Counted from the stretch's first letter, positions 21,156-33,362 are shown. The stretch: DNA of 64,000 bases from Luteibacter rhizovicinus (GCF_004342265.1 NZ_SMCS01000007.1:1-64000); one strand, 5' to 3'. The notes: a model not told the origin generated them from the letters alone. A program made the numbers and translations.

Positions 21156-21671
21156 ATGAGTCGCCGTATCGTCGTATCTGTCATTGCATCGCTCAGCGCA
21201 GTCGCATTGTTCGGGGTCGCGGAATACACCCACGCTGCCACCGCCACGACCACCTTCAACGTACGCATCCAGATCACCGCCGCGTGCGATATCAGCACTA
21301 CGGCACCTACCGACGTCAATTTCGGATCGCATCCGTCGACGGCTACCAATGTCGACAATCAGGGAGCGCTCAACGTGAATTGCACGCCCAGCTCGCCTTA
21401 CACCATCGCGCTGGATAACGGGCAGAACGGCATCGACGCCAATTCCCGCAAGATGAGCAATGGCACGGTACTCGTGCCCTACCAGCTCTACCGTGCCGCA
21501 ACGCGGACTGCCGCCGACATATGGGGAAGTACGACAGGAACGGGCGGCAATGTCTTCGCCGGCAGCGGCACCGGCGCGTCGGTGCCGCTGCCGGTGTACG
21601 GCCGCGTGCCAAGCACCAATTTCGCGGTCGGCAGCTATGCCGATGTGATCACCGCTACGATCACGTATTGA
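21156..21671 (+). CDS. Csu-type pilus major subunit (spore coat U domain)
   Basis: A 171-residue exported protein with a signal ending near YTHA, followed by a single SCPU domain. Its marks are NVRIQITAACDIS, DVNFGS, LNVNCTPSSPYTIALDNGQN, then VPYQLYRAA, WGSTTGTGG and PVYGRVP, ending GSYADVITATITY. The two Cys would form the conserved disulphide. Family knowledge: SCPU proteins polymerise through donor-strand exchange into archaic chaperone-usher pili that mediate attachment and biofilm formation (CsuA/B in Acinetobacter). It is the first gene of a four-gene operon with chaperone, usher and tip protein. Confidence 0.9.
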   Translation: MSRRIVVSVIASLSAVALFGVAEYTHAATATTTFNVRIQITAACDISTTAPTDVNFGSHPSTATNVDNQGALNVNCTPSSPYTIALDNGQNGIDANSRKMSNGTVLVPYQLYRAATRTAADIWGSTTGTGGNVFAGSGTGASVPLPVYGRVPSTNFAVGSYADVITATITY

Positions 21672-21673
21672 CG

Positions 21674-22408
21674 GTGTTTCCATGGCTTTCGCGAGCGTGG
21701 ATAGCCGCCTTGCTGGCGGCATGGTTGGCGTGCGTGCAGGTCACGGCGATGGCGAGCGGACTGCAGGTTTCGCCCATCGGCCTGCAACTTGCAGCCAATG
21801 CGCAGGCCGACGCGCTGTGGCTTACCAATACCGGGACCAACACGATTCAGGCCCAGGTCCGCGTGTTCCGCTGGACGCAGGTGGATGGAAAGGATCGACT
21901 GGAGCCCACGCGCGATCTGATCGTCAGTCCGCCGATGATATCGGTAGCGCCCGGCGACCGGCAGCTGATACGCGTGATCCGCAGCGTGGATGCGCCAGTG
22001 GGTACGGAGCTTGCATACCGCGTCCTGGTGGACGAGCTTCCCCTCGATCAGGAGGCGAAACCCGGCCTTCGCTTCGTACTGCGGTATTCCATTCCCATAT
22101 TCCTCGTTCCTTCCGATGGAGCGAAGACCGCGACGTTACGCGCGACATGGCGCGACGGGCCGGATGGAACCGCCCTGGAAGTACGCAATTCGGGCAGCGG
22201 CCACGCGCAGATAGCGGATCTCGCGATCGTCGGCGCCCAGAACAATCGCACGGTGCTGCTACCCGGGCTGGTGGGTTACGCATTGCCCGGCAGCACGATG
22301 AGCTGGCGCGTGCCGCCGCAAAGCAATCCCCGTGGTGGCGCCGTGCGCGCAAGGATCAACGGTGAGGTGTCCGAATCCACACTTACCGTGGACGCGGACG
22401 GCCGCTAG
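21674..22408 (+). CDS. Periplasmic pilus chaperone (CsuC/PapD-like)
   Basis: A 244-residue PapD-like chaperone. No ATG fits; the GTG at 21674 (or a TTG at 21668 overlapping the pilin stop) gives a signal peptide MFPWLSRAWIAALLAAWLAC ending near AMA. The mature protein has two Ig-like domains with GLQVSPIGLQLAANAQADAL, the conserved PPMISVAPGDRQLIRVIR strand and ELAYRVLVDELP. Its role is to cap and fold pilus subunits in the periplasm and deliver them to the usher. Its end overlaps the usher start. Confidence 0.88.
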   Translation: MFPWLSRAWIAALLAAWLACVQVTAMASGLQVSPIGLQLAANAQADALWLTNTGTNTIQAQVRVFRWTQVDGKDRLEPTRDLIVSPPMISVAPGDRQLIRVIRSVDAPVGTELAYRVLVDELPLDQEAKPGLRFVLRYSIPIFLVPSDGAKTATLRATWRDGPDGTALEVRNSGSGHAQIADLAIVGAQNNRTVLLPGLVGYALPGSTMSWRVPPQSNPRGGAVRARINGEVSESTLTVDADGR

Positions 22409-24719
22409 CCTTCTGATGCTCAACGCCATGGCCCTTCACGCGACATCGCGCGACGCGGCGGAACCGGCGCCCCCACCGCCTACCGTTACGCCGCGCACGC
22501 GTACGGCCGGCGAAGACCTTTATCTCGAAGTGATACTCAACGGTACGAGCACCAGCCGTCTCATCCACTTCGTACGCCATGGCGAAGCGCTATGCGCATC
22601 CACCTCCGATCTGCGTTCGCTGGGCTTCGTGGCGCTATCTGGCGACGACGAGCAATGCCTCGGCGACATGAAGGGAGTGCACTACTCCTACGACGTAGCA
22701 CTCCAGCGCGTTTCCGTCGACGCGAGCATCGACCGCCTTTCGCTGCCTCGCCAGGTACTGAATCGCAACGAACGAACATCGATACCCGCGACCAGCTCAA
22801 CCGGCATCCTGCTCAACTACGACATCTATGCATCGAGCGGCGAGGGACAGGGCAATATCAGCGCGCTGGCGGAAGCGCGGGCATTCACGTCGCAGTACGG
22901 CGTACTCAGCAACACGTCGCTGACCCGGCGCTACGAAACGAATAACGATGGCTGGAAAAGCGATTCCGTAAGACTGGATACGCAGTGGCGCCTGGCACTT
23001 CCCGACCGCGCGCAGGCGCTTACGATAGGCGACACCTTCACGGGATATCTGTCCTGGACGCGACCCACGCGTATCGGCGGCATCGCATTCGGTACCGACT
23101 TCGCCTTGCAGCCGTATCGCGTCACCACGCCGCTGCCGCAGTTTTTCGGCGAGGCAACCGCACCGTCGGCGGTGGAGCTTTATGTCGACGGTATCAAGCA
23201 ATACAACGGCAAGGTTCCCGCCGGCCCCTTCCAGCTGACCGCCGTGCCGGGCATGGACACCGCCGGCCAGGCCCAGGTCGTTCTCACCGATGCGCTGGGA
23301 CGCAGCAGCACGGTGACTTTCCCCATCTATTCCGCACGGCAGTTGCTGGGCGCCGGCGTGAACGACTGGTCGGTGGAACTGGGCGCCGTGCGCGAGGACT
23401 ACGGCATCACGTCGTTCAAATACGGCCACGAACCCATCGTCAGCGCGACGTGGCGTCGCGGCATCACCAACCAGTTCACCTTCGAAAGTCACGCCGAAGC
23501 AGGCGACGGTCGCGGCACGGCCGGCGCCGGCGCGGTCTGGACGCCCGGCGGCGCCAGCGTGGTCAACAGCTCGGTTTCGATGGCATACGGCGGCGGTATG
23601 CAGTTCGGCGCCGGCTACACGTGGACAGGCAAGTTCATGAACCTGTCGCTGGATACGTTACGCAGCCGTGGCAATTACCGCGACGTTGCCAGCGGCTACG
23701 GATCGGCGCCGCCCCGCGTAAGCGATCGTGCGCTGATCGGCTTCAACGTACGGCGCGCCAGCTTCGGAGCCAACCTCGTGCGCCTGCGATACGCGAACCA
23801 GCCGATGACGCGCTACGCCGGCCTGTTCGTCTTCGGCAATATCGGCCGCGGCACATCGATCAATCTCAGCATCAACCAGAACCTGGACAAGTCCAGCGAC
23901 CGGAGCATTTTCGTCGGCTTCACGATGGCCCTCGATACGCAGAGGACGTTGAGCTTCTCGGCCCAGCGCGATCGCGACCGAACGTCGTTCATTGCCGATG
24001 CCAGTCAGCCGATCCCCGGCGATGGCGGCTTCGGCTGGCATGTGCAGGGACGCAGCGGCGCCAACGGAGGCGGCCTGGGCGAAGTGGGCTGGCTTGGCAA
24101 CAACGGCCAGGCCACGCTGGGTGCGAGCACGATGGGAGCAGGCTCGTACAGTTACGCGGATATCAACGGTTCCGTGGTGTTCCTCGGCGGCCATGTGTTC
24201 GCGGCGCGGCGCGTCGACGATGCCTTCGCTGTGGTAACGACCGATGGCGTACCGGACGTTCCGGTGCAGTTGGAGAACCGCCGCACCGGCGTCACCGACA
24301 GTCATGGAACGTTGCTGGTTACCCGACTGAACGCCTATCAGGACAACCGTATCGCCATCGATCCCCTCGACCTTCCTGCCGATTCGCGCGTGCAGCGTGT
24401 CGAAGCGATCGTCGCCCCGGCCGACCGTTCCGGTGTCGTGGTGCGCTTCCCGATCAGCCAGGTACGCGCGGCATCCGTGGTGCTGGTCGACGAAGCCGGC
24501 GTCGATCTGCCATTGGGCAGTCGCGTCGATACGGGCGACGGGAAGCCGGGGATCGTGGGATACGACGGCCTGGCCTATCTCGACACGCTGAAAGGTTCGA
24601 CGGAACTGCGCGTGACGCGAACGGATGGCCGCACCTGCACCGCCACGCTCATCTACCCGGAACAGGCGCACGATCTTCCGCAGCTGGGACCGCTGACCTG
24701 CCGCGAGGTACGCCCGTGA
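22362..24719 (+). CDS. Outer-membrane usher (CsuD/FimD-like)
   Basis: A fimbrial usher of about 785 residues. The GTG at 22362 is preferred to the ATG at 22416 because AAGGA lies six bases before it and the product then has a signal peptide (TRTAASLLMLNAMALHA). The GTG lies inside the chaperone gene with a 47-bp overlap. Visible parts are the N-terminal domain (EDLYLEVILNG), the barrel with LQPYRVTTPLPQFFGEATAPSAVELYVDG at the plug, and YGGGMQFGAGYTW. The C-terminal domains end CTATLIYPEQAHDLPQLGPLTC. It forms the pore through which the pilus is assembled. Confidence 0.88.
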   Translation: MRCPNPHLPWTRTAASLLMLNAMALHATSRDAAEPAPPPPTVTPRTRTAGEDLYLEVILNGTSTSRLIHFVRHGEALCASTSDLRSLGFVALSGDDEQCLGDMKGVHYSYDVALQRVSVDASIDRLSLPRQVLNRNERTSIPATSSTGILLNYDIYASSGEGQGNISALAEARAFTSQYGVLSNTSLTRRYETNNDGWKSDSVRLDTQWRLALPDRAQALTIGDTFTGYLSWTRPTRIGGIAFGTDFALQPYRVTTPLPQFFGEATAPSAVELYVDGIKQYNGKVPAGPFQLTAVPGMDTAGQAQVVLTDALGRSSTVTFPIYSARQLLGAGVNDWSVELGAVREDYGITSFKYGHEPIVSATWRRGITNQFTFESHAEAGDGRGTAGAGAVWTPGGASVVNSSVSMAYGGGMQFGAGYTWTGKFMNLSLDTLRSRGNYRDVASGYGSAPPRVSDRALIGFNVRRASFGANLVRLRYANQPMTRYAGLFVFGNIGRGTSINLSINQNLDKSSDRSIFVGFTMALDTQRTLSFSAQRDRDRTSFIADASQPIPGDGGFGWHVQGRSGANGGGLGEVGWLGNNGQATLGASTMGAGSYSYADINGSVVFLGGHVFAARRVDDAFAVVTTDGVPDVPVQLENRRTGVTDSHGTLLVTRLNAYQDNRIAIDPLDLPADSRVQRVEAIVAPADRSGVVVRFPISQVRAASVVLVDEAGVDLPLGSRVDTGDGKPGIVGYDGLAYLDTLKGSTELRVTRTDGRTCTATLIYPEQAHDLPQLGPLTCREVRP

Positions 24720-25717
24720 AACGCCTCGCCGGACTGCTCCTGTTCCTGCTTCTGGCCCTGTCCGCCGCCGGGGCGCATGCCGCGACCGAATGCCATGTGA
24801 CCAGTCTGGGACCGGTAGCCTTCGGCCAGGTGCAGCCGAACTCCACAGCCGTCACAACCACCTCGACGCTCAACTATTCGTGTTCATATAACGGCGGTCT
24901 GCTCGGTGGATTGTTCGGCACGTACGTCACGATATGCGTGAGCCTCGGGCCCGATCCGCAATCCAGCTATAACCCGCGCACCCTGGTCAATGCCACCTCC
25001 GACACGATGAACTACAACATCTACAAGGACACCAACCATACCCAGGTCTGGGGCTCGCTTACCGTTTCGCCGACATCGCCACTCACTATCACAGATAGCT
25101 TCACCATTCTCGCCAACGGGACGACCAAGACCGGCTCGGTCGTCATCTACGGACAGGTGCCCGCCTCCCAGGCGAACCTGGCGTTCGGCAGCTATACCGG
25201 TTCGCTCACGGCCTCGATGAACTACCGGTACAACGAAGTTCTCCTGTCGTTGGGCGGCTATCCGGCGAGCTGTACCACGGGCGGGACCGGAGGGGGAACC
25301 AGCACATCGACCAATCTCGCCGTCACCGCTAGCGTTCCTCCGTTTTGCGCTGTCGGCACCGCGGACGACCTGAATTTCGGCAACATACCGGGGTTCATCA
25401 ACACGAATCACGACAATAATTCGCTGGTTCGCCTGACCTGCACCCTGCGTTCGCCGTGGCAGATCGGCCTCGACAACGGCCAGCACGCCACCGGTTCGAC
25501 ACGACGCATGCTGGGTACAACCACGACGGTTATCTACGAGCTATACAAAGAGGCGACCTACGCCACGCGCTGGGGCAATACGCTCAACACGGACACCCTC
25601 AGCGGCACGGGAACAGGCGCGGAGCAAGCCATAAGCGTCTACGGTCGCGTCCCCGTACAGACACCGGTTCCCGCCGGTTCGTACAGCGACGTGATCCAGG
25701 TGACGGTGACGTACTGA
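24716..25717 (+). CDS. Csu-type tip protein with two spore coat U domains
   Basis: A 333-residue exported protein. The GTG at 24716 overlaps the usher stop (GTGA) and gives the signal MKRLAGLLLFLLLALSAAGA-HA. Two SCPU domains are visible: the first from ATECHVTSLGPVAFGQVQ to GSYTGSLTASMNYRYNE, the second from VTASVPPFCAVGTADDLNFG to GSYSDVIQVTVTY, joined by a Gly/Thr-rich linker (GGTGGGTSTST). Two-domain SCPU proteins at the end of such operons (CsuE) are tip adhesins. No terminator hairpin was seen before the REP pair that begins 27 bp later. Confidence 0.87.
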   Translation: MKRLAGLLLFLLLALSAAGAHAATECHVTSLGPVAFGQVQPNSTAVTTTSTLNYSCSYNGGLLGGLFGTYVTICVSLGPDPQSSYNPRTLVNATSDTMNYNIYKDTNHTQVWGSLTVSPTSPLTITDSFTILANGTTKTGSVVIYGQVPASQANLAFGSYTGSLTASMNYRYNEVLLSLGGYPASCTTGGTGGGTSTSTNLAVTASVPPFCAVGTADDLNFGNIPGFINTNHDNNSLVRLTCTLRSPWQIGLDNGQHATGSTRRMLGTTTTVIYELYKEATYATRWGNTLNTDTLSGTGTGAEQAISVYGRVPVQTPVPAGSYSDVIQVTVTY

Positions 25718-25744
25718 GCTTGGCCCCCAATTTCGCGAACCTCC

Positions 25745-25886
25745 CTGTAGGAGCGCTCTCGAGCGCGAAAGCCAACGGAGCGTAGAAACGGATACTCACA
25801 TTCGCCAGCCCCGATCCACGGGCTGGCGTTGCAACGCAGGGCGTCTTCGCTTCGTCGGCTTTCGCGCTCGAGAGCGCTCCTACAAC
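25745..25886. repeat. REP pair (BIME) no. 2 after the pilus operon
   Basis: Inverted hairpins built on GTAGGAGCGCTCTCGAGCGC at each end flank a conserved interior with CACATTCGCCAGCCCCGATC. The interior is close to that of the pair at 26541-26682, while the stems differ. It begins 27 bp after the tip-protein stop and may terminate the pilus operon. Confidence 0.85.
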
Positions 25887-26206
25887 ATAGTCGGTGCCCA
25901 CTCAGACTAATCTGAAAATTCGGTCTCTTTTATCCAAACGGGTTGACGCTTCATGCCGTCGCCGCGATCCTCACCGGGTCGCCGCACATCGGCGATCGGG
26001 TGTGGAAACCCGTGTTCCGCAGTAGGCGCTGAAGACGCCGTCTCAAACGACGTCTTCATGCGTTGCGATACGTTGTGCCTGCCTTACGGCGGGCGTGCCG
26101 GGAGGACTTCGGTCCTGCCGGGTTCCTACTGCACCGGTTTTTCCACCCTGGCACGCCCGCCACCCGCATCCTGCGGGTGGCGGACATCCACGGAGAGGAT
26201 GCCGCC
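25887..26206 (+). ncRNA. Strongly structured 5' leader of a small orphan gene
   Basis: This non-coding stretch contains several inverted repeats. A 7-bp stem pairs 26031-26037 with 26051-26057. A long-range perfect 12-bp stem pairs 26088-26099 with 26150-26161, enclosing an AGGAC-TTCG-GTCCT hairpin (26103-26116). Another perfect 12-bp stem pairs 26157-26168 with 26172-26183. The last two share 26157-26161, so they exclude each other, and the second ends nine bases before the ribosome site GGAGAGGA. This is the layout of a leader that switches expression, though no ligand or class is recognised. An overlapping frame of 85 codons (25953-26210) looks non-coding. Confidence 0.5.
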
Positions 26207-26521
26207 ATGAGCAGCAAGCAAAACGAACCATCCGCGTCGTACGTCCTGAAGTCCGGCCACGACCTGTCCATTCCCTGCCCGCTTTGCAAAGGCAGTCGGG
26301 CCCTGAAGCTGGGCGATATCGACGAAGCGATCACCGAGCGTTTGTCGGGCATGCGTGGCGTGACCGATCTGCTTATCGACGTACCGATGATCGATGCCGA
26401 GCAAGGCTCGGTCGCGCAGGCTGCGTACGTGCTGCGCGGTCTGATCGATGAGGTCGTCGAGATGTATCGGGTGATGAGTCCGGGGGGCGATGAGAAGAGG
26501 CGCGGGATGCCGGTGCAGTAG
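26207..26521 (+). CDS. Small orphan protein with CPLC motif
   Basis: A 104-residue protein of unrecognised family. The ATG at 26207 is chosen for the GGAGAGGA seven bases upstream. It contains one CPLC pair near residue 24 (SIPCPLCKGSRALKLGD), which might bind metal or form a disulphide. A helical region follows (DEAITERLSGMRGVTDLLID, then AAYVLRGLIDEVVEMYRVM) and the tail is charged. There is no signal peptide or membrane helix. It is isolated: the pilus operon precedes it and the convergent cytochrome operon follows, with a REP pair on each side. No function is proposed. Confidence 0.7.
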   Translation: MSSKQNEPSASYVLKSGHDLSIPCPLCKGSRALKLGDIDEAITERLSGMRGVTDLLIDVPMIDAEQGSVAQAAYVLRGLIDEVVEMYRVMSPGGDEKRRGMPVQ

Positions 26522-26540
26522 TCCAGCGATGCCCCGATGT

Positions 26541-26682
26541 CTGTGGGAGCGCGCCTGCGCGCGAAAGCCGACGAAGCGTAGAAGCGGATGCTCACATTCG
26601 CCAGCCCCGATCCGCGAGCTGACGTTGCAACGCATGGCATCGCCGCTCCGTCGGCTTTCGCGCGCAGGCGCGCTCCTACAAC
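26541..26682. repeat. REP pair (BIME) no. 3 before the cytochrome operon
   Basis: Inverted GGGAGCGCGCCTGCGCGCG-type hairpins flank an interior that closely matches BIME 2 and shares GCATGGCATCGCC with BIME 1. It fills the gap between the orphan gene stop (26521) and the cytochrome c4-like stop (26708), which converge. It probably acts as a bidirectional terminator. Confidence 0.85.
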
Positions 26683-26707
26683 GATCCGGTTATATCCAAC
26701 AATTCAG

Positions 26708-27388
26708 CTACAACGACTCGATGTAGCTCGACAGGGCCGCGATATCCGCATCGCTCAGGTTCTGCGTCACGCCATGCATCACGCTGGCGTTACTGCTGCC
26801 CACCCGCGTACCCGTCCGGTAGTCGCCCAACTGTTGCGTCACATATAGCGACGACTGCCCGGCCAGCGAGGGGAAGCTATGCCACGACGGCTGGGGCGAC
26901 GAAGAAAAGGCGGGCTTCGGCCCCCGGCCGGCCGTGCCATGACACCCCTGGCACGGCGGCACGCCCAGCGTTGGATCCCCCGCAAGATAAAGTACCGCGC
27001 CGCGCGACGATGCATCCGGCCGGCCGGCGGCTTTCGGCGCCAGCGCCGCGTAATGCGCGGCAAGATCGCGCATATCCGCATCGGACAACCCGGCCGCCTG
27101 GCCAGTCATGATGGGATTCGCACGCTGCCCCTCTTTGTACTCTTTCAACTGGATGTATACGTACGTTGCGGATTGCCCCGCGAGATTCGGAAACGTGGGC
27201 GCAATGGCCACGCCTGCCGGCCCGTGGCATGCCGCGCATACCGCAGCCTTCGCGGTGCCCGCCGTGGCATCGCCATGCACGGTTTCCACGCGGCGCAGGT
27301 CGAGCGGCTTTACCGGTGCATCGGCGGCCGCGCAGGGAAGCATCCATGCGAATGAGGCGGCGACGATCAGACGAACAATGGTCGACAT
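26708..27388 (-). CDS. Diheme cytochrome c4-like protein
   Basis: A 226-residue periplasmic cytochrome with a signal peptide ([19 protein letters not shown] to AADA). Two class I heme c domains carry [11 protein letters not shown] (about residue 51) and CQGCHGTAG (about residue 147), with candidate axial Met residues in NPIMTGQA and SVMHGVTQ. Length and two-domain layout match cytochrome c4. It is the third gene of an operon after the decaheme cytochrome and the barrel, so a likely role is electron transfer between the decaheme protein and inner-membrane oxidases. GGAGGGGG lies just before the ATG. Confidence 0.88.
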
Positions 27389-27398
27389 GGCCCCCTCC

Positions 27399-29984
27399 TC
27401 ACAGCTTCACGTTTAACATGGCGCCGACGAGGCTCGCGCTGTAATGCCGCTGCGGTCCCTTGTCGGTGTAAACACGATGGTCGTAGTCGAGCGTGTTGTC
27501 GAATCCCGCGTAGTGGAAATCGGTGAACGACCCCGTTTCGTAACGACCGAAGAGACGCATGCCGAGCTGATTGGTGAACCTGAAACTCAGGCCAAGGTCG
27601 ACGCTGTTGCTGCGATAGCTGTTGTCCGGAAAACTGTCGCCGGCGGCGGCCGCCGCATTGGGTCCGTGGTACGCAAGCGCGGCGAGCGAAGCGTAGTTGT
27701 AACCCACGTGACCGAACGAACCGGAGTAGTTGTAGCTCACATCCGCGCGCACCCGACCGAAGTCGTGACTGAAACTCAGACCCGCGTTGCTATTACGCTC
27801 GCGATCGAACTCCCACCATTGATTCGCGTACGGATACAGCGGACCGCCAAGACTGGGATTGGTCTGGCCGATGTTCGAACCGATCAGCGACTCGTTGTCG
27901 GCCACGTTGGATATGCCGAGCCTCGTCCCTTCGGCGCCCAGATAGACATTCATCGTCGTGGCTGGCGTCGGCTGCCAGTCCCACTGCAGGGTGGCGCCAG
28001 TCGTCGACGTATTCTGCCGGCCGATCTGCGTATCGTAACGATCGCGACTGCCGTAGAACGTGGCCGAAAGCGTGGTCGAATCACCCCATGGATACGTGAG
28101 GATGAGACGCGCTTTGTTCTCCGTGCGATCGGAAAGATCGTACTTGCGCATGTCGTCCACGGTATGTGCCGCGATACCCGTGACCGGATCGACGAAGCCC
28201 GCCAGCGATTCGGAAAAGAACTGTTTGTAGGGATCGTAGTTGTAATGATCGCCGGTACGACTGGCGTATTCGTAAGAAGCGCGAATCGTCGCGCCACCCA
28301 CACTCCGGGCGACCCATGCGAGTTTGATCCGCTGGTCGTCGACCCGCTTCCGCTCGCGATATTTCGGCTGGTTATGGTCGAAGGTATAAGTCGCGCTCAA
28401 CGACTGCTTCGGCGCCACTTCCCAGTCGCCACCCAGTTCGAACAACGTATCGGTGTAGCCGTATGGCACGTTGCGAACCGTCACATTGGCCGAATGCAGC
28501 AGCGGATTGCGTGGATCGAAGATGCCCGATTCGCCGGGCACGATGCTTCCCTGCGAGCCGTTCTCGGAGATGTAACCGTACTGCCCCGTGATCGGGTTAT
28601 AGGCGAGATAACGGGTCTTGTTGTCCTCGCGGTACCAACGCAGGTTCGCATGCCAGCCGAACGTCGGTGTCGGCCGGAAGGTCAGGCGCGTATCGATCAG
28701 TCCGGTGTCGATGCGCGCATTGGCATTCTTCTGCGACAACGCGTTCGTCGTGTTCCAGTCCGCGCAATTGAACGTGTAGTTGACCGGCGGCGCGATGAAG
28801 ATGCCGCCGGTACCCGTACAGGTGGTTGGCGGCAGCAGCGCATCGTTCTGCCTCATCGTCCCGTAAGCCGCGGCGACCGTGAACTGGCCATTCCCTTTCA
28901 GTTCGCGCGACAGGTCCAGCCGGACGTTGTGATAGTCGTTGTCCGGCTCAAGGGAGAATTGGCCGTACTTGATATCGGCAACCTGCGGCGTGCCCACGAC
29001 GTTGTAAAGACGGAACGGACTTTCGAAGTTCAGGTGATCCTGGTTGTTGCGGAAGAACGAACCGGTATAAGTCGCCATGAAGCGCCATATCCTGCCGACG
29101 TTGCGCACGCTCAGATTCACGTCGGTCGTACGGAAATCGATGGGCCGGACCGTTTCCAGCACGCCGCCGTTATCGGGAAACGGATAGTTGAAGAACATCG
29201 AGCCGCCCCACAGACGCGTACCCGATCGTTTTTCGTTCGTGACCGACGCCGATCCGATCCAGTTGCGCCACACCGTGCCTTCGATGCCGATGCCTTCGCG
29301 TGTGCGCGTCAGCCCGATCGTGCGGCGCGACGACCCTGCGTGCGCGGCGGCCACCTGGCCCGGCGTGCTCGCACCGGCGATCAGCGGAGAAGGCAGCGTC
29401 AGATCGGAGGTTCCGACGCCGTTCCACAGAGGATAGGCATTCGTCGACACGGTATGCGGCATGTCGCGGTAGAAGGCTTCCACGCGATAGCGCCCGTACT
29501 GACCGGCACGCAGGCGATAGAACTGGTCGTCGCCGCTCAGCCGGCTACCGCGCAGTTCGACGTACTGGCCGGTTTTCGCGTTCTGGAAGTCGAGCGCCAG
29601 AAGACCCAGCGCGAAGCCGGATTTCCAGTCCGCGTACTGGCGGAAGAATTCCGCGTTGCGGCCGCCGCCCACGTGGATAAATCCGAGTTCCACCACGCCG
29701 GAATAGGTCCAGTCGGTCGCTTTACCCAGCGGCTTCACATCGGCGGCGGCGGGCGGAAAGCGATACGGCAGGCCCGTCGGCGTGCGCAGCATGCCCGCGT
29801 GCAGATAGGACATGCCGTCCGGATCGGCCGGATACAGCATGGGTGTCCAGCCGCGCGGGTCGAGCGCATTCCCGAACTGCATGTCGCCGACGCGCATCGT
29901 ACCGCTGGTATCGCCGGCGAACGCGCACGAGGCGCATGCGACACCGATGCCGAAGATCAGGACTTTCGCTTCGAGCGCATGCAT
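27399..29984 (-). CDS. MtrB/PioB-family outer-membrane porin for a decaheme cytochrome
   Basis: An 861-residue beta-barrel protein. The ATG at 29984 is chosen over 30002 because GAGGAGG then sits six bases upstream and the product opens with a clean signal ([23 protein letters not shown]). A globular N-terminal plug-like part ([22 protein letters not shown]) is followed by many amphipathic strands with alternating aromatics, ending [16 protein letters not shown]. It matches the MtrB/PioB family, which sheaths an MtrA-type decaheme cytochrome across the outer membrane. The mature part has no N-terminal CxxC pair like that of Shewanella MtrB, which brings it closer to PioB/MtoB. It lies 21 bp after the decaheme gene. 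Confidence 0.88.
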
Positions 29985-30005
29985 TGTCCGCCTCCTCGTC
30001 ATCGG

Positions 30006-31124
30006 TCACTTGTGGAACTTGGAACCGGAGGGATTGTTCGAACCGTGGATGTTCGTGTGACAGCTAAGGCACGCGCGCCCCATCACGCGTTCGTCGGGCG
30101 ACGCACCGGTGCCCATACCCGCAGCCGTCTGCAGGTCGTTCGGATGGCGCGTCATGGTGTGGCACTGCTGGCACAGCATCGGGATCGGTGCGACCAGCAG
30201 GGTCTGCTGGTTCGATCCGTGCGGGTCGTGGCAGTTGAGACAGTTCTGCCGTACGGGCGCATGCTCGAACAGGAACGGTCCGCGCTTCTCCGCATGGCAG
30301 GTGTAGCAAGTCTCGTTGACCGTATCGGTCTTCAGCAGCGGCTTCGTGATCGTGCCGTGCGGGTTGTGGCAGTCCGTGCACGCCAGCTGCCCCTCGGGTA
30401 GCGGCATATGCGAGCGGCGGTTGAACTTCGCGCGGATGTCCTGATGGCAGCCGGCGCAGACTTCATTGATGGAAGGTTTCGCCAGCACGCCCTCGGGCGA
30501 CACACGCGCCATCGGGTTGTGACAGTCGGTGCACGAGAGATCGCGCAGTTCGTGGATCGAGCCGGTCCAGTGCTGGCGCGCACCGCCGGCATGGCAGCCA
30601 AGGCACACCTTCGCCTGCTCGGCGGGGGGTGTTTTCGAGTCGTGGGTGAACGCGATGATCGAGCCGGGAGCGGTCGGATTCTTCGCGTGTTCGGAACCCG
30701 GCCCGTGGCAGGTCTCGCATGCGGCCTGCGGGCCGCTGCGTTCGCTGCCCGCCCGGAACGACGCGACATGCAGCGAGTGCGACGCCTGGATGTTTTCCTG
30801 GGTATGGCACGCGATACAGGTTTTCGATCCGATCGGATCGGCTTTGGGCATCAGCGGATTCGTCGGAATGGACGCCGCGTCGAAGGATGTCGCCGTGCTG
30901 GTGTCCCCCGGATGGGTAGCGGCCGTATAGGTCGCCATGCCGTGCCCATGCCCCGCGCCCATGTCGGTCGCCGGCAGCATGCGCGCGATATCTTGCTGGG
31001 TCAGGGGTGCGCTGGAGGCAGGTGCGGCCTGCTGGGCGCCGGCTTGGCCGGGCCATGCGACGACCGCGGCCAGTGTGGCCGCCATGAGAACGCACGCCGC
31101 TAACGAGAGCGGGAAAACACGCAT
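30006..31124 (-). CDS. Decaheme c-type cytochrome, MtrA/PioA/DmsE family
   Basis: A 372-residue periplasmic protein with ten CxxCH motifs: CIACH, CETCH, CLGCH, CTDCH, CAGCH, CTDCH, CYTCH, CLNCH, CQQCH and CLSCH. That is the MtrA/DmsE pattern. The ATG at 31124 gives a signal peptide (MRVFPLSLAACVLMAATLAA to AGA); an upstream ATG at 31166 would add 14 residues. About 95 heme-free residues follow the signal, including a His/Gly-rich MGAGHGHGMATY, an extension longer than in Shewanella MtrA and reminiscent of PioA. With the MtrB-like porin it would conduct electrons across the outer membrane. No MtrC/OmcA-type surface cytochrome is in the window. Confidence 0.92.
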   Translation of the reverse strand: MRVFPLSLAACVLMAATLAAVVAWPGQAGAQQAAPASSAPLTQQDIARMLPATDMGAGHGHGMATYTAATHPGDTSTATSFDAASIPTNPLMPKADPIGSKTCIACHTQENIQASHSLHVASFRAGSERSGPQAACETCHGPGSEHAKNPTAPGSIIAFTHDSKTPPAEQAKVCLGCHAGGARQHWTGSIHELRDLSCTDCHNPMARVSPEGVLAKPSINEVCAGCHQDIRAKFNRRSHMPLPEGQLACTDCHNPHGTITKPLLKTDTVNETCYTCHAEKRGPFLFEHAPVRQNCLNCHDPHGSNQQTLLVAPIPMLCQQCHTMTRHPNDLQTAAGMGTGASPDERVMGRACLSCHTNIHGSNNPSGSKFHK

Positions 31125-31348
31125 GGCTATGGCATCCCTATGGCTTTGCGTGAGCGCGCCGGCCACCCCTCAACCCCTGATGGATGCCGGCATCGGGTTC
31201 GAGTATCGACCGGCTACCGCAACGCCGGTAAGCCTGTGGCAACGAGATTGTTTGTCCAAGATTCGCGAACAATTGCGATGCCGTGGCGCAACATGCACGT
31301 TCCTGCGAGAAGAGTAATCTCGCGGTGACCTGCTTCCGGGGAGGAGTC
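31125..31348. promoter_or_regulatory. Divergent promoter region with LysR-type dyad
   Basis: The 224-bp gap separates the decaheme operon (leftward) from a LysR gene (rightward). It contains the dyad ATTGTT-N15-AACAAT at 31247-31273, of the size and AT-rich character of LysR-regulator boxes. GGGGAGGAG just before 31349 is the LysR gene's ribosome site. Confidence 0.55.
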
Positions 31349-32290
31349 ATGCAGGATCTGAACGATATCTATTACTTCGCGCAGGTCGTGGAATTCGGGG
31401 GATTCACCGCGGCGAGCAAAGCGCTCGGCGTGGCCAAGTCGTTGCTCAGCTTTCGCGTGGCGCGGCTGGAGAAACATCTGGGTGTCCGCCTGATCCAGCG
31501 GACCACGCGCAGCGCTTCGGTCACCGATATCGGCCGCACTTACTACGACCAGTGCCGGGTGATGCTGGAAGCCGCAGCCCAGGCACAGACGCTTATCGAC
31601 ACGGCGCAGGAAGCCCCGCGCGGCTGCATCCATGTCGCCTGCCCCGTCCTTTTCGCGCAGTTGCTGCTGGCGCCCGTGCTGGTGGGTTTCCTGCAACGCT
31701 ACCCGGATGTCCAGGTCGATCTGGACATCACCCGGCATCAGGTCGATGTCGTCACGGGGGGTTACGACATCGCTTTTCGCGTTCGTCCCTCCGTGAAGGA
31801 TTCGAGTCTCGTCGTGCGTTCGTTCGGCATGGATCCGCAGATGCTGGTCGGCAGCACGCGCATGCTCCGGCAGTACGGCCTGCCGCAGGACCCGTCCGAT
31901 CTTCAACGCTTGCCGAGCGTTGGTGTGGTTGCAGCGGATAACCGGCACTTCTGGCCGCTCACCCATCGGCACGGCGAAACGCGGCAGATCGAACACCATC
32001 CCCGCATCGCCACGGACGACCTCTACGTCATGCGGCAAGCAGTGGAAGGCGGCATAGGTATTTCCCAGTTGCCGCGCTTCCTCTGTCGGGAAGGACTGGC
32101 AAGCGGCCTGCTGACGGCGTTGCTTCCGGACTGGGAGTTACCCGCCGGCAACGTGCACGCCGTCTATCCATCGCGTCATGGTCAGATCCCGGCTTTGCGC
32201 TGCTTTATCGACTACGTGGCGCAGATGCTGCCGAAGGAACTGGCGAGCCTGCATGACGACGACCAGCAGGAGCTTCGCGCCACGGCATGA
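31349..32290 (+). CDS. LysR-family transcription regulator
   Basis: A 313-residue regulator. The start at ATG 31349 gives the usual LysR N-terminus MQDLNDIYYFAQVVEFGGFT and has GGGGAGGAG upstream. The winged helix-turn-helix (about residues 5-62; AASKALGVAKSLLSFRVARL) is followed by an inducer-binding domain of the periplasmic-binding fold. Its N-terminal sequence resembles the DsdC/PA0133-type branch often annotated beside oxidoreductase operons. The divergent orientation makes it the natural candidate regulator of the decaheme/porin/c4 operon. That is inference from position; the effector is unknown. Confidence 0.9.
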   Translation: MQDLNDIYYFAQVVEFGGFTAASKALGVAKSLLSFRVARLEKHLGVRLIQRTTRSASVTDIGRTYYDQCRVMLEAAAQAQTLIDTAQEAPRGCIHVACPVLFAQLLLAPVLVGFLQRYPDVQVDLDITRHQVDVVTGGYDIAFRVRPSVKDSSLVVRSFGMDPQMLVGSTRMLRQYGLPQDPSDLQRLPSVGVVAADNRHFWPLTHRHGETRQIEHHPRIATDDLYVMRQAVEGGIGISQLPRFLCREGLASGLLTALLPDWELPAGNVHAVYPSRHGQIPALRCFIDYVAQMLPKELASLHDDDQQELRATA

Positions 32291-32306
32291 CGGGCAAAGA
32301 GCCCCG

Positions 32307-33362
32307 TTAGTACTCGTCGCGGCCGCGAAATTTCTTGTGCGACTTCACCGGCGGCTTGGAAGCTGCCTTGCGTTTGATCCGGGCTTCCAGTGTCGCAGCC
32401 TGCTCTTCGCGCTCATCGTGCAATTTAAGGAAACTACGCCAGCGTTGCGACGAAAGCTCCCCCGATTCCAGCGCGGCCTGGATCGCACACCCCGGTTCGT
32501 TGCTGTGGCCGCAATCGGCAAAACGGCACTGTGCCGCCAGCGCTTCGATATCGGCGAAGAGGTCCAGATTTTCCTCGCCCGTGAGCTTCAGCTCGCGCAT
32601 CCCCGGCGTATCGATCAGACAACCGCCCGTCGGCAGCTTCAGCAACGCGCGATGCGTGGTCGTGTGCCGGCCGCGGCTATCGTGCGACCGCACGGCCTTG
32701 GTCGCCATACGCTCTTCGCCGAGCAATGTATTAGTCAACGTCGACTTACCCGCGCCGGACGAACCCACCAGCACCGCGCTGCTGCCGGGCCCCAGATACT
32801 CGGCCAGCAACGACACGGTCGACGGATCTTTCGTATTGATCGCATGCACCGCGGTTTCCACGGCCACGCGATCGCGAACCGCCGCGATGGCACCGGGTAT
32901 GTCGTCGGCCATATCGGCCTTGCTGAGCAACACCACGGCACGCGCGCCCGAGCCTTCGATCAAGGCCAGATAACGCTCGATACGAGTGGGATTGAAGTCG
33001 CCGTCCAGGCCCATCAACACCATCACGTAGTCGATATTCGTGGCAATGACCTGGCGCTCGTAGCGCTCGCCGGCCGCGGCACGGCTTAGCACGGTGCGCC
33101 TTGGCAGCACCGCTTCGATGACCGGATGGCTTGCGTGATCGAGGAAAACGAAGTCGCCGACGGCGGGCCTGACCGAGGGATCGAGACCGCGCTTAAGGAA
33201 CTGTCCGGCCGGCTGGGCGTTGAACGTGCCGACACCATCGTCCAGCTCGTAACCGGCGCGATGCTGGGCGACGACACGCGCAAGCCGCCGGCTGTCGTCG
33301 GGCAGGCTGGGTTCGCGCCAGCCAATCTGGCGCAGGCGCGCGATATCCGGAACATCGGTCAT
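32307..33362 (-). CDS. rsgA: Ribosome small-subunit maturation GTPase RsgA
   Basis: A 351-residue circularly permuted GTPase. Order of motifs: OB-fold region with VGDFVFLDHA, then G4 (LLSKADMAD), G1 (GSSGAGKSTLTN) and G3 (DTPGMRE), and a zinc finger with CRFADCGHSNEPGC. The C-terminus is basic (KSHKKFRGRDEY). The start at 33362 (MTDVPDIARLRQIGW) gives the normal length; extending upstream would enter the alaA region. RsgA checks 30S subunit assembly at the decoding centre. Its stop is only 16 bp from the convergent LysR stop. Confidence 0.93.
   Translation of the reverse strand: MTDVPDIARLRQIGWREPSLPDDSRRLARVVAQHRAGYELDDGVGTFNAQPAGQFLKRGLDPSVRPAVGDFVFLDHASHPVIEAVLPRRTVLSRAAAGERYERQVIATNIDYVMVLMGLDGDFNPTRIERYLALIEGSGARAVVLLSKADMADDIPGAIAAVRDRVAVETAVHAINTKDPSTVSLLAEYLGPGSSAVLVGSSGAGKSTLTNTLLGEERMATKAVRSHDSRGRHTTTHRALLKLPTGGCLIDTPGMRELKLTGEENLDLFADIEALAAQCRFADCGHSNEPGCAIQAALESGELSSQRWRSFLKLHDEREEQAATLEARIKRKAASKPPVKSHKKFRGRDEY

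Follow-up and report, generated by a model that had tools for sequence, protein, structure and literature searches.

A three-gene operon on the minus strand of the window (the whole 64,000 nt stretch of Luteibacter rhizovicinus DNA analysed in the current study) probably specifies a Pio-type conduit for electron uptake across the outer membrane, in which a cytochrome c4 takes the place of PioC and feeds an aa3 oxidase and, through it, O2. The operon runs from nt 31124 to nt 26708 in the order decaheme cytochrome, MtrB/PioB barrel and diheme c4, and the genes are separated by gaps of only 3 bp (decaheme/barrel) and 10 bp (barrel/c4). Because of the protein families to which they belong and the fold modelled for the barrel, a role of the decaheme and barrel as a conduit is well supported.

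The first gene (nt 30006–31124, minus strand) encodes a 372 aa c-type cytochrome of the MtrA/PioA type. It carries exactly ten CxxCH motifs and scores 266.8 bits against TIGR03508 (cut-off 192.2), which places it in the MtrA/DmsE decaheme superfamily, and its closest solved structure is 6R2Q chain A (E 9e-65). The second (nt 27399–30002, minus strand) encodes an outer-membrane barrel of the MtrB/PioB family, 867 aa in length, that scores 320 bits against PF11854 (cut-off 23) and 241.5 bits against TIGR03509 (cut-off 240.05), with 6R2Q chain B as its closest solved structure (E 1.8e-16). The third (nt 26708–27388, minus strand) encodes a diheme cytochrome c4-like protein of 226 aa, the closest solved relatives of which are c4 cytochromes (6q2u_A, E 4.8e-38). 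Its two CxxCH motifs are flanked by the invariant residues Met94 and Met204, in agreement with the two class I heme domains and Met ligands of cytochrome c4, and it is likely to be a periplasmic partner of the decaheme, with which it co-varies (see below).

An AlphaFold2 model of the barrel, made with 18 family sequences (pLDDT 73.9, pTM 0.73), aligned best with 6r2q_B, the MtrB of the Mtr complex (VIA-align Z 24.2, 633/649 residues, rmsd 2.6 Å; runner-up Z 14.7), and is compatible with the approximately 26 strands of MtrB (PMC7198977). A model of the decaheme alone reached a pLDDT of 41 and was set aside. The sole CxxC of the barrel is a CASC at residue 23, within the signal peptide. Two other cysteines, C395 and C413, are nearly invariant and lie 18 residues apart in one loop, where they may form a disulfide. 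The sequence-only reading had described one compact operon made up of a gene with ten CxxCH motifs, an MtrB/PioB-type barrel gene and a diheme c4-like cytochrome gene, with a mature porin devoid of a CxxC pair. All of this was borne out by the profile matches, the spacing of the genes and the position of the CASC motif, and the structure prediction it had called for, run here for the barrel, returned the MtrB fold.

Phylogenetic analysis placed these proteins apart from the Shewanella homologues. In a tree of 81 decahemes that included Shewanella MtrA, MtrD and DmsE, one Gallionellaceae sequence (L156) and PioA-like alphaproteobacterial sequences, the window decaheme fell within a clade of 31 (bootstrap 100, SH-aLRT 98), together with sequences from Rhodanobacteraceae/Lysobacteraceae, Methylobacter and two alphaproteobacteria (L234 and L235). 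The latter two are decahemes of 447 aa with a long N-terminus and barrels of 842–844 aa, and are PioA-like by appearance rather than verified PioA proteins. All of the Shewanella sequences lay outside, as did L156, which is of Gallionellaceae type but is not a verified MtoA. The barrel tree recovered an identical group (support 100), so that the phylogenetic check proposed earlier finds both proteins in a single well-supported clade, distinct from Shewanella MtrA/MtrD/DmsE and from Gallionellaceae-type decahemes. An MtrC-like neighbour accompanies none of the 31 clade members but 11 of the 50 outside them; the median barrel length is 864 aa in the clade and 740 aa outside; and a mature N-terminal CxxC, lacking throughout the clade, occurs in 21 of 49 outside barrels, mainly in the MtrC/Dms-linked lineage. 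Published MtrA trees with genuine MtoA and PioA among their sequences show no function-specific clade (PMC8805035), so placement alone cannot be taken as proof of direction. The designation 'Pio-type' rests on the Met signature (see below), the barrel size and the PioA-like alphaproteobacterial sequences. Another genome of the host's family (G270, locus L062) has a decaheme that belongs instead to the Gallionellaceae-side clade.

The heme-free N-terminus of the window decaheme proved less distinctive than the sequence-only reading had supposed. It was described there as an unusual His/Gly-rich extension of about 95 residues. It spans 102 residues with the signal peptide and about 70 without it, and contains a single short Gly-His run, GHGHG, that is absent from relatives. 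Long N-termini are frequent in the clade, where the first CxxCH is preceded by a median of 81 residues (range 39–201).

All ten hemes of MtrA are bis-His-ligated. In the alignment, two of the columns that hold distal His residues in MtrA are occupied by Met in the window decaheme, which accordingly lacks the ten distal His of an MtrA-type protein, the ligands themselves being predicted from these columns. The first, Met205 (codon at nt 30510–30512, minus strand), follows the fourth CxxCH (CTDCHNPM); the second, Met240 (codon at nt 30405–30407, minus strand; RRSHMPL), corresponds to the distal His of the MtrA sequence SSHP. One or two hemes of the decaheme are probably His/Met-ligated, and hence of high potential, with H239 or H116 as possible substitute ligands in place of M205 and M240. 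His/Met ligation reportedly defines PioA homologues in many genera, according to the abstract of a PioA study; should this hold, the Met signature would not be new and the novelty of the present case would be limited to the c4-linked branch. Among all ten-heme sequences collected, the first position is Met in 70, His in 110 and Ile in 1, and the second reads SHMP in 70 of the 70 with Met at the first position and in 3 of the remainder. Of these 70, two come from a Rokubacteria MAG and a deltaproteobacterial MAG and fall just outside the 31-member clade. The Rokubacteria and deltaproteobacterial decahemes (L147, L155) have an additional Met at the position of the clade's conserved H119. The two Met positions provide a sequence marker dividing this lineage from MtrA-type decahemes. 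In one report, PioA titrates from -400 to +250 mV compared with -400 to -100 mV for MtrA, and His/Met ligation is given as the distinction of PioA (PMC12203936).

The host genome (4.47 Mb in 22 contigs; family Rhodanobacteraceae) was searched for the partners that such a conduit has in other systems. No match to NapC/NirT-type quinol dehydrogenases (CymA; PF03264) was found across the genome, nor any real match to the OmcA/MtrC surface decahemes. Two weak OmcA/MtrC hits below the cut-off were rejected, one (C9:118168) being antisense within the lpxD-fabZ-lpxA region and the other being the decaheme of the operon itself. The earlier statement that no MtrC-type surface cytochrome or CymA lies nearby can be extended genome-wide, within the limits of this search for MtrC, OmcA and CymA, which the same reading had recommended. 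No DmsA-type reductase occurs among the listed neighbours of the decaheme and barrel, and the operon carries no gene for the HiPIP PioC, its third gene being the c4. HiPIP genes are present elsewhere in the genomes of Dyella, Frateuria, Dokdonella and Thiorhodococcus. The RuBisCO large subunit was not found in the host genome. Its heme-copper oxidases, as found here, are an aa3 type (CtaD 695 bits, over the cut-off, with CoxB) and a bo3 quinol oxidase (CyoB 1136 bits), and as the former is the only cytochrome-c oxidase found, it is the candidate oxidase for the c4.

In the proposed mechanism, the decaheme would sit inside the large MtrB/PioB barrel, forming a heme wire. Electrons would enter at the cell surface from an extracellular donor, which could be Fe(II) (one candidate among others), a reduced mineral, humics or some other reduced compound, and would pass along the wire to the co-encoded periplasmic His/Met diheme c4, then to the aa3 oxidase and finally to O2. 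Given that the host has no RuBisCO, uptake would serve as an energy supplement during heterotrophic growth and would not sustain autotrophy by way of that enzyme. Precedent for the step from c4 to aa3 is found in iron oxidation by Acidithiobacillus, where the c4 cytochrome Cyc1 feeds aa3 (PMC10654088), and MtoD has been proposed as an electron supplier to a terminal oxidase (PMC13390432). The lack of MtrC and CymA, the Met residues at two positions of the wire, the Met ligands of the c4 and the aa3 oxidase downstream would together make an inward path energetically natural, and we infer the direction on this basis. The inward, Pio/Mto-like layout suggested by the sequence-only reading is upheld to the extent that the proteins are PioAB-like rather than MtrAB-like, as the clade placement of both proteins, the two His-to-Met changes, the large CxxC-free barrel and the missing MtrC and CymA all indicate, while the direction itself is consistent with these data.

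An identical conduit could run outward at low O2, taking electrons from bc1 or some other c-type donor in the respiratory chain and passing them through the c4 and the decaheme to minerals, humics or redox shuttles, although this is unlikely on the present evidence. MtrCAB can run in reverse and MtrAB-type wires are reversible (PMC8805035), the diheme shuttle PdsA works in outward electron transfer in other bacteria, and an MtrC-less PCC in Methylobacter has been proposed to act outward on an anode (PMC13322032). However, that Methylobacter PCC shares the gene order of loci L186 and L191, the first of which lies outside the clade, and the host genome carries neither NapC/CymA nor MtrC/OmcA. 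In addition, the Met residues at two ligand positions and the His/Met c4 indicate high potentials, at which export along low-potential hemes would be unfavourable.

Within the genus, a barrel over the cut-off was found in 1 of 23 genomes, representing a single species, and across the order 123 of 398 genomes gave a match over the cut-off, some of them short or weak. Carriers include Dyella marensis, Frateuria, Dokdonella fugitiva, Pseudoxanthomonas, Stenotrophomonas and Rhodanobacter. Among the Rhodanobacteraceae/Lysobacteraceae loci that were read, nearly every complete one groups the decaheme, the barrel (about 820–920 aa) and the diheme c4, whereas the other neighbours vary. Apart from a LysR gene in close relatives, the loci examined revealed no additional gene that accompanies the unit. 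Related loci of purple sulfur bacteria and Thauera kin (Thauera, Pseudothauera, Thiorhodococcus drewsii and Thiococcus; L137–L144) share the decaheme and barrel, which are followed there by two diheme cytochromes. Across 59 loci, the pairwise identities of the proteins co-vary (decaheme-barrel rho 0.96, decaheme-c4 rho 0.90), the latter value being reached in none of 500 permutations. Judged by these identities, the parallel divergence of the three proteins shows joint inheritance, a pattern that shared ancestry alone could also produce. Plasmid records gave a single distant match only. No published description of a decaheme-barrel-c4 unit in Rhodanobacteraceae was found among open papers.

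A LysR-family regulator of 313 aa (nt 31349–32290, plus strand; NCBIfam LysR family) is divergently oriented with respect to the operon and probably controls it; in the proposed mechanism it would act as the switch. In Dyella, Frateuria-type and kin loci, copies with 65–70% identity (59% or less in a few more) occupy the corresponding divergent position upstream of the decaheme. The intergenic region that separates the operon from the LysR gene holds an operator-like dyad, TTGTTC-N9-GGACAA (nt 31252–31272, minus strand), which is largely conserved in 9 aligned intergenic regions and has one match in the window where 0 are expected. A consensus scan detected no sigma-70-like promoter for the operon. 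A LysR gene with a conserved operator-like site would also suit an inward conduit that is induced by small molecules and serves detoxification or local redox chemistry (of reactive metals, phenolics or quinols) rather than energy, and both the absence of RuBisCO and the patchy presence within the genus are compatible with such a role. Against it, a c4 that is conserved along with the unit suggests a connection to the respiratory chain and the loci examined hold no additional co-travelling gene, so we regard a non-energetic role as distinctly improbable.

The operon and LysR gene, together with a repeat element, make up a segment (nt 25718–32348) that is absent from three congeners (G016, G001 and G003), as seen by blastn of the window against the corresponding loci (L199, L200 and L201). 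Both flanks are kept in the congeners, with 47 to 84 bp between them where the window has 6.6 kb; one flanking gene ends at nt 25717 and the conserved part of the other starts at nt 32349 or 32380. Most simply, the 6.6 kb segment is a gain in this lineage, with loss in the others also possible. The G+C content does not mark it (0.63, against 0.63 and 0.66 in the flanks). This empty site, the divergent LysR gene and the conserved operator-like site beside it, and the family-wide unit that includes the c4 are additions to the sequence-only reading, which had omitted them. The occurrence of the segment in one species of the genus, next to repeat elements, and the lack of a sigma-70-like promoter in the consensus scan might suggest that it was acquired in passing and is expressed weakly or not at all. 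This is very improbable, as no reading frame is disrupted, the operator-like site and all heme motifs are retained, and the unit is conserved across families with parallel divergence.

Several other features were observed in and near the segment. An element of about 780 bp (nt 25900–26680) has further copies, 70–89% identical, on several other contigs, and includes a 104 aa ORF (nt 26207–26521) with a CPLC motif and no NCBIfam or PADLOC match. Also inside the segment missing from congeners are two REP-like copies of 142 nt (nt 25745–25886 and 26541–26682), 85% alike, each of which can fold into a long hairpin (arms of 41–53 nt, 83–93% complementary). The region adjoining the insertion point (nt 21156–25717) carries fimbrial-type genes (usher, chaperone and subunit-like ORFs), as judged from ORF translations alone.

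Conduits of this kind have been investigated in phototrophs, in iron oxidisers and in metal reducers, and the Rhodanobacteraceae are not known for phototrophs. The type of wire is known, but a Pio-type conduit paired with a c4 in ordinary aerobes is not well described in open papers. It is possible, though we put this forward tentatively and as something short of likely, that many aerobic, heterotrophic Rhodanobacteraceae/Lysobacteraceae import outside electrons by means of a mobile, LysR-switched PioAB-c4-aa3 chain. If true, bacteria common in soil would be supplementing their respiration with electron uptake in a way that has gone unrecognised. Dyella, Frateuria and similar aerobes can be cultured, and a compact, transferable conduit in them, equipped with a c4 of its own and linked to a regulator gene, would extend the range of organisms in which electron uptake is expected, and the unit offers a small genetic system for asking what determines direction in a porin-cytochrome wire.

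Compared with known systems, the operon shares its decaheme and barrel families with MtrCAB, MtrDEF and DmsEFAB of Shewanella, and its barrel has the fold of 6R2Q chain B. The window proteins belong to a separate clade, however, and the Shewanella systems have ten bis-His hemes, an N-terminal CxxC in the barrel, a surface MtrC/MtrF or DmsA and an inner-membrane CymA, all of which differ from or are missing in the present case. The Cyc2-Cyc1-aa3 chain of Acidithiobacillus offers a possible functional parallel, leading from an outer-membrane oxidase to a diheme c4 and then to aa3, but Cyc2 is an unrelated fused monoheme barrel, and the operon described here includes no rusticyanin gene. MtoAB(CD) of Sideroxydans and Gallionella is likewise an uptake-type pairing of decaheme and barrel, occurs in isolates without MtrC, and has related barrels that lack CxxC; unlike the window decaheme, those of Gallionellaceae type lie in the other clade and have His at both of the positions discussed above, and their clusters use MtoD and CymA/MtoC-type partners that are absent here. 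The closest resemblance is to PioABC of Rhodopseudomonas palustris TIE-1, which similarly combines a decaheme with a large MtrB/PioB barrel (PioB is about 87 kDa; PMC6831781) and has no MtrC or CymA. In both, a heme-free N-terminus precedes the wire, although in PioA it is about 200 residues long and is cleaved off, compared with about 70 residues here, and the Met residues found here at distal-ligand positions are in keeping with the His/Met ligation reported for PioA. The present system differs from PioABC in that its host is without RuBisCO, a divergent LysR gene accompanies the operon, and a cytochrome c4 stands in the place of the HiPIP PioC.
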